From Candidatus Gottesmanbacteria bacterium (GTDB lineage Bacteria > Patescibacteriota > Microgenomatia > UBA10105), in assembly GCA_023245415.1 (NCBI GenBank), contig JAHFKJ010000006.1, forward strand, positions 1 to 59,375: a stretch of 59,375 bases of DNA. Reading direction: 5' to 3'. The position numbers and the translations under genes are program-made. Positions 38,704 through 44,103 of this stretch are shown here, one piece after another; within the stretch, counting starts at the first letter, position 1, and every line of letters starts with the position of its first letter. The notes beneath the pieces are model-generated. The model had not been told where the DNA came from, did not search any database, and saw nothing but the letters and a program-made list of their open reading frames with translations.

Positions 38704-40344
38704 ATGGCAAAACAACTTAAATTTGCAGAAGACGCCAGACAGGCACTCGTAAAAGGGGTCAATATATTGGCCAAAGCAGTCGTAACGACATTGGGACCCA
38801 AAGGCCGCAATGTAGCGATTGATAAAAAATGGGGTGCGCCCAATGTCATTCATGACGGGGTGACCGTAGCCAAAGAAATTGAACTGGAAGATGCATTTGA
38901 AAATATGGGGGCACAGCTTGTCAAAGAGGCTGCTTCCAAGACAAATGATGTCGCCGGAGACGGAACTACCACCGCGACTCTTTTGGCTCAAGCAATAGTC
39001 AACAGTGGCTTTAAAAATGTCACGGCCGGAGCTAATCCGATGATTCTTAAAGTCGGCATGGATAAGGCAGTTGAAGTTATAGTTGCCGAAATTAAGAAGA
39101 TGTCCAAAACGGTTAAAGATACGGATGTGGCTAAAGTAGCAACCATCTCGGCCCAGGATGAGAAGATAGGCGCTTTGATCGCCGAAGCTTTGCAGAAAGT
39201 GGGTAAAGACGGGGTCGTTACAGTGGAAGAAGGTAAAGGATTGGCCATGGAGATTGAATATAAGGAAGGCATGGAGTTTGACAAAGGCTATGCCTCGCCT
39301 TACTTCGTGACCAATGCGGACAAGATGGAAGCAGAAATTGAAAGTCCGTACATCTTGATCACTGACAAAAAAATCTCGTCAATCCAAGACCTCTTGCCAT
39401 TCCTTGAGAACTTTGTCAAAGTTTCGAAGAATCTGGTGATTATAGCCGATGAGATTGATGGAGAGGCATTGGCGACATTGGTTGTGAACAAGCTGCGCGG
39501 AACATTCCAGGTTCTGGCCATCAAAGCTCCCGGATTTGGAGATAGGCGTAAGGAAATGCTGGAAGATATTGCAGTTTTGACCGGCGGCACGGTGATCTCT
39601 GATGACACGGGCAGAAAATTTGACAATGTCACGGTGCAGGATTGCGGCCGAGCTGACAAAGTTTGGGCTGACAAAGAAAATTGCCGGATAATCGGCGGCA
39701 AAGGTGCAGCTGCTACTTTGAAAGCCAGAATTGCGCAAATCAGACGGGCAGTTGAAGATACTACCAGCGACTTTGACAAAGAGAAACTGCAGGAAAGACT
39801 AGCTAAACTTTCTGGCGGAGTAGCGGTCATCAACGTCGGGGCTGCAACTGAGGTGGAAATGAAAGACAAGAAGGAACGCGTCAATGACGCAGTTGCTGCC
39901 ACCAAAGCCGCGCTTGAAGAAGGGATTGTTCCCGGAGGCGGTGTGACCTTACTCAGGTCTCGGCTGTCACTGCTGAAACTGCGAGATAGTCTCACAATCG
40001 CCGATGAAAAAACCGGCGTCGATATCATCTACCATGCGCTGGGCGAACCGGTTCGCTGGATAGCCAAAAACGCAGGTGCTGATGAGGGATGGGTTGTCAA
40101 AAAAATTGAAGAAGCCAAGGGCCAGGATTATGGATTTGACGCGATGACCATGGAATTTCGTTCCATGCTTGACGCAGGCGTTGTCGATCCGGCCAAGGTA
40201 ACCCGCAGCGCAGTTCAAAACGCCACCAGCATAGGCGCTATGATCTTGACGACCGAAGCATTGATCACGGATTTACCGGAGAAAGAGAAAGCTCCAGCTA
40301 TGCCAGGTGGAGGTATGGGTGGCATGGGCGGAATGGACTATTGA
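38704..40344 (+). CDS. groEL: Chaperonin GroEL
   Basis: 546 residues from the ATG at 38704 (AGGAGG 8 bases upstream). [33 protein letters not shown] (~24-56), the ATP-binding DGTTTAT (~83-89), [11 protein letters not shown]-type loop ([15 protein letters not shown], ~402-416), and the GGM-rich tail ([13 protein letters not shown]) are all present. Two internal frames are conserved along the whole length. A copy of the last codons and terminator recurs at 43981-44103. Confidence 0.98.
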
Positions 40345-40400
40345 GGTCGCAACCGAAATCCTGAGCTTGTCGAAGGATAAAGTTTACAGTAAAAAAAGAA
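40345..40400 (+). repeat. Post-groEL repeat unit, copy 1
   Basis: After the groEL stop comes GGTCGCAACC and then GAAATCCTGAGCTTGTCGAAGGATAAAG, containing the word CCTGAGCTTGTCGAAGGA that is a common repeat in CPR and other genomes. The same segment recurs at 44024 after the groEL-tail copy. There the ten bases after the stop are replaced by the palindrome TCCGCCAGCCGGCGGA. Confidence 0.8.
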
Positions 40401-40402
40401 TT

Positions 40403-40432
40403 AAAAACCCCTGCGTGCGCGCAGGGGTTTTT
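40403..40432 (+). terminator. groESL intrinsic terminator
   Basis: AAAAACCCCTGC / GCAGGGGTTTTT with a GTGCGC loop: a strong 12-bp bidirectional hairpin ending in T5. A near copy lies at 44074-44103. Confidence 0.92.
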
Positions 40433-42724: not shown

Positions 42725-43931
42725 CAACCAAGATAGTGTAAAAGAGACATGTGTGGTGGCAAGGCGTTTGTCCGACGGCGATCAAATTCACGCCTTTTTT
42801 ATTTTGAAGCATAAAGATGCGGATTTAAAAAAAATTGTTGCCCAACTAAACTCGCGCCTTGAATCTAAGCAGCAAATTACCAGTTTCGAGTTGTGGCCTC
42901 AGGCAGATTTCCCCCGCACCCCAACCCTTAAAATAGATCGTAAACTAATGTCTGAACTGGCTAATAATCACATCTCCCGAAAAGCTGTGGTAGCGTCCCA
43001 ACTAAATACCGGGCAACTGTTTGACATTCTGGATGTGGTAAGCAAAGTAAGTAGCTTTCCCAAAGAGCGGATTGTCGACACAGATATTTTGGCAACTGAT
43101 TTAGAATTGGATTCTCTGACGCGGACTGAGTTGGTTTCATTGGCTGAAGAATATTTGGGAATTGTGATTGATGAAGCAAGTATTACCTCTAAAACAACGA
43201 TAGGGGATTTGAAAGATTTATGTAAGCATTCAGAAAATATTGCAGATCTTAAATTACCGGTATGGCAATTTAGCAAATGGGGACAATTTTTTAACCGATT
43301 GGTTATAAGTATGGTGTTGATCCCTTTGCATAATTTTGTAATAAAAATTAACTATCCGCAAATTCACCTTCCCCGCATCAAACCAGGCAGTTTAGTACTT
43401 ATCAATCACCCGGGAATTTTGGACGATATTTGTACTATTCGTCTGCTGTGGAAACAAGGACTCAAGAAGATCACTTCTGCAGCAGTATTTACGAATTGGG
43501 AACCGCGAGACATATTGACCTTTGCGATCGAGTTGTTCGTGGGCGGATTACCGCTATATAAGTCTGGACAAAAATTTACCAAAGTTATGTCGAAATTTTC
43601 TGATCTTTTGGATCAGGGCTACGCATTCATTTTTGCACCCCAAGGCAGAGTTGAAGCTTTCACTGCCATGCATGAAGATCCATTTCTACCCGGAGTAGGT
43701 TATATAGCTAAAGAGTTAAGAAAGCCTATATTTATAGTAAAAGTTAAAGGTTACAAAAAGATTTGGCCCAATACGCCCCAGGGTTGGAGCAAGTCACCAT
43801 TCAGGGAACTGTTGCCAAAACGGCGTGGGACCGTTGAAGTGATTGTTTCAGAAGAAATCAAAGTTGATTATGAAAACTTGAGTCCTATCCAAATTACCAA
43901 TTTACTTGAAGAAAAATACAAAGCAATTTAG
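42699..43931 (+). CDS. Acyl carrier domain plus PlsC-type acyltransferase (C-terminal part of the ligase fusion)
   Basis: 410 residues from a GTG. The first ~100 residues finish the AMP-ligase C-terminal domain (VEDLESKI, PTLKIDRK). Residues ~105-185 form an acyl-carrier domain with the phosphopantetheine serine in DLELDSLTRTEL. Residues ~205-405 form a PlsC/LPLAT domain with H-x4-D in LINHPGILDDI and FAPQGRVEAF as the later block. The order ligase-ACP-acyltransferase resembles the Aas/acyl-ACP synthetase arrangement used to reacylate lysophospholipids. It is likely made as one protein with the upstream frame. Confidence 0.82.
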   Translation: MEDLESKISNQDSVKETCVVARRLSDGDQIHAFFILKHKDADLKKIVAQLNSRLESKQQITSFELWPQADFPRTPTLKIDRKLMSELANNHISRKAVVASQLNTGQLFDILDVVSKVSSFPKERIVDTDILATDLELDSLTRTELVSLAEEYLGIVIDEASITSKTTIGDLKDLCKHSENIADLKLPVWQFSKWGQFFNRLVISMVLIPLHNFVIKINYPQIHLPRIKPGSLVLINHPGILDDICTIRLLWKQGLKKITSAAVFTNWEPRDILTFAIELFVGGLPLYKSGQKFTKVMSKFSDLLDQGYAFIFAPQGRVEAFTAMHEDPFLPGVGYIAKELRKPIFIVKVKGYKKIWPNTPQGWSKSPFRELLPKRRGTVEVIVSEEIKVDYENLSPIQITNLLEEKYKAI

Positions 43932-43965
43932 TCTTTTGAAATTTGGGCAAAATTTTCAATAAGGT

Positions 43966-44103
43966 GTGTCAGGCGGAATAGGTGGCATGGGCGGAATGGA
44001 CTATTGATCCGCCAGCCGGCGGAGAAATCCTGAGCTTGTCGAAGGATAAAGTTTTCAGTAGAAAAAAAGAATTAATAACCCCTGCGAGCGCGCAGGGGTT
44101 ATT
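43966..44103 (+). repeat. Duplicated groEL 3' end with terminator, copy 2
   Basis: Bases 43968-44007 encode, in a frame without its own start, [13 protein letters not shown] and a stop, the groEL C-terminus. From GGTGGCATGG (43981) to the stop the match to groEL is exact over 27 bases. After the stop lies the palindrome TCCGCCAGCCGGCGGA (44008-44023), then the GAAATCCTGAGCTTGTCGAAGG segment and a near copy of the groEL terminator. Together with copy 1 it forms ~100-base direct repeats flanking the three-frame acyl module. Confidence 0.92.
44074..44103. terminator. Terminator of the acyl module (groEL-terminator copy)
   Basis: AATAACCCCTGC / GCAGGGGTTATT with a GAGCGC loop. It differs from the groEL terminator by paired changes in the stem base (AAAAA/TTTTT against AATAA/TTATT), so both arms changed together and pairing was kept. 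Confidence 0.9.

Follow-up and report, generated by a model that had tools for sequence, protein, structure and literature searches.

A second copy of the groEL 3' end behind an acyl-activation module in a Gottesmanbacteria genome: a possible scar of recombination anchored in a gene end

The window, i.e., the whole stretch of 59,375 nucleotides analysed here from a Candidatus Gottesmanbacteria genome (1.55 Mb, 60 contigs), carries groEL, an acyl-activation module directly behind it, and a second copy of the groEL end (tail 2) on the far side of the CoA-transferase and ligase–acyltransferase genes from groEL. The features of the locus are as follows:

38704–40344, + strand: groEL, 546 aa, the sole full copy in the genome (Pfam PF00118), 88% identical to that of the same-family relative G001
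40300 to about 40433–40440, + strand: tail 1, the last ~15 groEL codons, 3'UTR and terminator (sequence comparison, folding)
40438–40443, + strand: TATAAT box, a probable promoter directly behind the tail 1 terminator (from sequence and the like layout in most relatives)
40462–41397, + strand: Family III CoA-transferase/alpha-methylacyl-CoA racemase-like gene (PF02515; solved structures)
41390–42724, + strand: AMP-binding acyl ligase, the N-terminal part of a broken fusion protein (PF00501; homologues are single open frames)
42678–42724, + strand: frameshift zone in which the frame moves by +1 (alignment with four homologues)
42699–43931, + strand: C-terminal part, comprising the ligase lid, an acyl-carrier domain and a PlsC-like acyltransferase (profile search, alignment)
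about 43960–44107, + strand: tail 2, the groEL-end scar, 3'UTR, terminator and an extra hairpin at 44008–44023 (sequence comparison, folding)
44120–44756, − strand: gene pair resembling a PIN toxin and a MazE antitoxin, convergent with tail 2 (profile search)

Comparison of the window with itself (BLASTN) aligns tail 1 with tail 2 at 84% identity over 133 columns (E = 2e-34), and throughout the 1.55 Mb of the genome these are the only two copies of the groEL end. The direct repeat described in the initial annotation is reproduced in all its parts: the exact 27-base match ending in the groEL stop codon (40318–40344 and 43981–44007), the repeat word after the stop (40355–40397 and 44024–44066, 95% identical) and the terminator (40403–40432 and 44074–44103). 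Local alignment places the start of the repeat at about 43960, somewhat upstream of the exact match, and the block of homology stops at the terminator on both sides. The two terminators form strong hairpins of −22.3 and −26.0 kcal/mol. Behind the stop codon, the ten bases GGTCGCAACC of tail 1 are represented in tail 2 by the 16-base hairpin TCCGCCAGCCGGCGGA. The paired substitutions that had been claimed for the terminator stem amount to one A–U to U–A pair (40405/40430 versus 44076/44101), accompanied by nothing more than one loop change. The attendant claim that the copies are old enough to have co-evolved loses much of its force with a single paired change as its basis, because one hairpin-templated correction could make one compensatory event, and the stem thus leaves great age unproven. 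A TATAAT box stands where the promoter had been proposed, just after the groEL terminator, in an arrangement common to most relatives.

The first gene of the module is nearest by sequence to succinate–HMG CoA-transferase and alpha-methylacyl-CoA racemases, with a C-terminus about 55 residues shorter than that of the racemases. The AMP-ligase and the ACP-acyltransferase, which had been read as two genes, are pieces of one open frame elsewhere and are split here by a frameshift. In four Patescibacteria homologues, a single frame of 821–881 aa runs from ligase through carrier domain to PlsC-like acyltransferase; unlike these, the present copy has no continuous open frame and breaks at about 42680–42700. 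At the break it lacks two residues that all four homologues have, indicating a net loss of about five bases, which rules out both a programmed frameshift and a one-base sequencing error. The AMP-binding domain scores above its Pfam cut-off and the Acyltransferase domain just below; the NHX4D motif of the acyltransferase is kept, and its PEG motif reads PQG. Like the Aas-like acyl-ACP synthetase/phospholipid O-acyltransferase families (NF005959, NF006386), the protein combines an AMP-forming ligase and a PlsC-like acyltransferase in one polypeptide. It differs from them in the order ligase–ACP–acyltransferase and in its internal carrier domain, and these and all its other NCBIfam matches lie far below the curated cut-offs. 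Judged by its domains, the module would serve acyl-group activation and transfer to an acyl carrier or lipid, and the frame break suggests that it is probably damaged and decaying. A foreign base composition was considered and rejected, GC and GC3 of the module being ordinary for this genome. The holo-ACP synthase of this genome lies on a different contig. At the loci of three of the four Patescibacteria homologues (L062, L063, L065), the ligase–ACP–acyltransferase fusion adjoins a holo-ACP synthase-like gene, and the two together may possibly form a minimal fatty-acid activation and acyl-transfer cassette. Patescibacteria are generally thought to be without fatty-acid synthesis.

In the order to which this genome belongs, groEL is present in 26 of 27 genomes, one per genome, the split groEL of G026 being two parts of one gene. 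A second full groEL in a relative, which the initial annotation had named as the sign of a duplication, was not encountered: neither this genome nor any other of the 26 order genomes with a groEL match contains a second full groEL or a larger groEL fragment. Furthermore, all 20 order relatives inspected have a single groEL tail; the downstream DNA available, between 0.1 and about 10 kb per genome, contains no second one. Their tail usually consists of one terminator, behind which the next gene's extended −10 promoter (TTTTTGGTATAAT-like) follows immediately; at L033–L048 this forms a compact terminator–promoter unit, and the gene that it leads into differs from genome to genome. Upstream of groES the relatives keep a conserved gene order, downstream of groEL they never share one, and the insertion place is the spot where each relative carries different genes. 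Neither the module nor the PIN/MazE pair was found behind groEL in any relative examined. The CoA-transferase gene occurs in one of the 27 order genomes, this one, and is absent from the 26 others; a search of genome contigs returned no relatives of it, and the phylum sample gave only a weak partial match. With one tail in 20 of 20 relatives and a CoA-transferase gene in just 1 of 27 order genomes, it follows that module and second tail are additions of this lineage, in agreement with the proposal that the set was added next to groEL. The empty site suggested as a check is seen in part: other genera show one tail and no module, but the exact pre-insertion junction is unseen and the downstream genes differ in every relative, and no same-genus genome, donor or exact empty site was found among the order genomes. 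The intact groEL is what its family would lead one to expect, with no mark of import at its 3' end. Upstream, an insertion of about 4.9 kb (window 33336–38231; a carbonic anhydrase-like gene, a PIN toxin with its partner, and others) separates groES from the conserved gene before it, the two standing close together in relatives.

A second scar lies in the same window, 1.8 kb beyond an intact pair formed by a SOD gene and its neighbour:

49478–49717, + strand: the SOD 5' end fused to the 3' end of the next gene at a shared word (window self-comparison)

The chimera consists of the first 113 bp of the SOD gene (46521–46633) and the last 139 bp of the neighbour (47672–47810), joined at a 12-base word common to both (TATGTCGCAAAT). 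It is dead, and its SOD part (82%) is far more diverged than its neighbour part (96%). Elsewhere in the window, an exact 63-bp tandem-like repeat occupies 20637–20771 within an open frame on the − strand (18455–20842).

The survey of gene-end remnants covered 664 kb of this 1.55-Mb genome and about 1.1 Mb of its order relatives. About ten such remnants, the groEL tail among them, occur in the 664 kb. A strict count, restricted to protein ends that stand as isolated same-strand fragments beside their own gene, gave 9 of 545 ORFs here versus 2 of 963 in the relatives (p = 0.003), with a relatives' sample partly biased to the surroundings of groEL; among the nine, the L110 case is probably a false positive of an rRNA region. 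The SOD gene and its neighbour are among the cases counted. In L110, the frame at 18024–19902 is LAGLIDADG-like and the region looks like an rRNA operon. The trpS and groEL remnants have matching anatomy and stand outside the strict count. The arrangement of cargo between a gene and its repeated end was found at groEL and at the following genes, the last two in relatives:

cytidine-deaminase-like gene: remnant enclosing an EamA transporter and a methyltransferase gene
ruvC: remnant enclosing a 414-aa gene
msrA: remnant enclosing a 214-aa gene
ndk: remnant enclosing a 120-aa gene
transglycosylase gene: remnant in this genome
trpS: remnant carrying an inserted 30-base piece
lepA: 5' and 3' remnants (L074, 15115–15182 and 17498–17563) around the intact gene (15265–17406), enclosing only short spacers
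tsaD: remnant around an ATPase gene (L037)
prfA: remnant enclosing only a short spacer (L138)

The remnants keep the orientation of their gene and usually enclose one or two genes. They lie nearly always beyond the copied end, downstream for a 3' end and upstream for a 5' end, as recombination at a gene end requires; the exception is the remnant of a 153-aa gene in L083, which stands on the wrong side. At lepA, inverted copies of a hairpin-like repeat of ~75 bases lie between gene and remnant on each side, and L072 holds two tandem deaminases and a third remnant. Intergenic repeats of ~45–80 bases in L078 (CTTTCCTTGCGTATAATT...GGAGAGAGGT; 8094, 8884, 13313, 17282, 18112 and 19390), several of them beside toxin–antitoxin-like genes, were set aside as a dispersed repeat.

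The differences between remnants and intact ends bear on the history of the two copies. For the SOD, ruvC, lepA 5', trpS and ndk remnants, pS is 0.39 and pN 0.08 (p = 1e-10); for msrA, lepA 3', tsaD and prfA, the values are 0.61 and 0.15. This bias towards synonymous sites indicates that the copies diverged as working genes and were brought together later; the decay of a fresh local duplicate would leave no such bias. Most simply, the diverged copies would have evolved in different lineages before meeting. A near-identical class, comprising groEL, the SOD neighbour, L099 and the 153-aa gene of L083, is uninformative (pS 0.03, pN 0.05); the groEL tails differ at one synonymous and four nonsynonymous sites. 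As to which copy is older, 18 of 19 relatives are closer to the SOD remnant than to intact SOD, and 25 of 25 are closer to the 3' remnant of lepA than to its intact counterpart, which points to the remnant as the older resident at these two genes. At ndk it is the intact copy, not the remnant, that resembles the relatives, the remnant there being too short and decayed to show which copy is the older. The neighbourhood of ruvC has no conserved gene order in relatives and is hence uninformative on an empty site.

Taken as a whole, we favour, with a probability of about 0.5, the explanation that tail 2 is the recombination scar of an integration anchored in a gene end, by a single crossover or by homology-facilitated illegitimate recombination (HFIR). 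The like anatomy at about ten unrelated genes argues for recombination anchored in gene ends and against a site-specific attachment site in groEL. The donor would be a DNA fragment of a close relative in which the groEL 3' end is directly followed by the module, taken up from outside by natural DNA uptake. The fragment would recombine with the resident groEL through the common gene end, and an illegitimate join would connect its other side to the resident groEL within the final codons; alternatively, the fragment might circularise and enter by one crossover. By either route, a single event without an integrase would yield an intact groEL, tail 1, the module, the old tail in truncated form (tail 2) and, behind it, the resident genes. 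A block of homology that ends at the terminator is the pattern to be expected from two strains with the same groEL tail and different genes after it. This frame suits the locus better than that of an integrative element, and it does not require a duplication of groESL.

At groEL itself the chief alternative, which we consider rather unlikely, is a tandem duplication of groEL or groESL, entry of the module between the copies, and deletion of the second groEL down to its last codons and terminator. The groEL tails, little diverged and with no synonymous excess, are too short and too alike to reveal a synonymous bias, so that a local duplication fits them equally well, as the initial annotation had allowed. 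In addition, the SOD chimera shows a second copy shrinking by deletion at a short shared word, and the deaminases of L072 with their third remnant look like a decayed array. Against these observations, the duplication needs three events, one of them with a boundary exactly at the terminator, the relatives have one groEL per genome, and the synonymous-biased differences of the other remnants are unexpected under local decay.

Less probable still is a displacement in which a whole foreign groEL landed with the module beside the resident gene, which then decayed to tail 2, so that the newcomer would be the intact gene. The SOD and lepA remnants, nearer to relatives than the intact copies, are in keeping with such a course, as is the intact lepA flanked by remnants of both its ends. 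However, the groEL body takes its normal place within the family (88% identity to G001), and the gene keeps its conserved upstream neighbours except for the 4.9-kb insertion. An artefact that joined contigs of two metagenome strains and so doubled the groEL end is very improbable: the assembly of 60 contigs and the strain-like low divergence of the tails would suit it, but the junction has no N run, the two-end lepA remnants, the internally deleted SOD chimera and the 30-base insert of trpS go beyond a simple join, and similar cases exist in other species (L037, L138).

Integrative elements usually regenerate a gene 3' end that flanks their cargo, and the confirmed direct repeat of the groEL 3' end around the module has this form. 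A site-specific element with the groEL 3' end as attachment site and an integrase since lost is nevertheless hardly credible: the open frames between the tails encode the CoA-transferase, ligase and ACP-acyltransferase and, in agreement with the initial annotation, no recombinase, the groEL end does not recur as a shared attachment site in the other insertions of this genome or in the 20 relatives, and like anatomy occurs at both 5' and 3' ends of many unrelated genes. The repeat lengths, about 60 to 250 bp, also exclude a target-site duplication of fixed size, and a phage carrying the groEL end was rejected, the 27-base end being on no viral contig.

Returning to integration anchored in a gene end, the scars are distinguished from integrative elements that regenerate a gene 3' end, with which they share cargo between direct repeats of that end, by the lack of an integrase, the many unrelated targets, the use of 5' ends and the variable repeat length. 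In situ xenologous gene displacement is the takeover of a resident's locus by a diverged orthologue; unlike there, pieces of the old gene remain here and extra genes lie between. One-ended homologous integration by HFIR, and partial gene duplication (lacZ) by a single crossover, have been described (PMC3240628), and the scars resemble these events in having one homologous side, no recombinase and a gain of foreign cargo. By comparison, those were laboratory events with known donors, whereas the scars here arose in nature, occur repeatedly and affect mostly the ends of housekeeping genes; a further difference is that HFIR proper usually deletes resident DNA. Patescibacteria have been described as competent through comEC and pili (PMC12455944). 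The proposed integration would be a variation on a known kind, unusual in that it recurs within a single small genome.

These observations address the open question of how small, host-dependent bacteria with reduced genomes gain genes without obvious mobile elements. At somewhat less than even odds, we tentatively propose that in this Patescibacteria lineage genes are routinely added beside housekeeping genes, free of recombinases, via gene ends common with relatives, each event leaving a terminal scar of the resident gene, and that these scars would document the gain of genes and the replacement of orthologues across the whole genome. If the scars are footprints of imported DNA, the events can be counted from sequence, with the target gene named in each case, and the synonymous distance between scar and gene would give an estimate of the distance of the donor. 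A warning also follows for phylogenetic markers, in that lepA, ruvC, trpS and groEL may be newcomers or hybrids.
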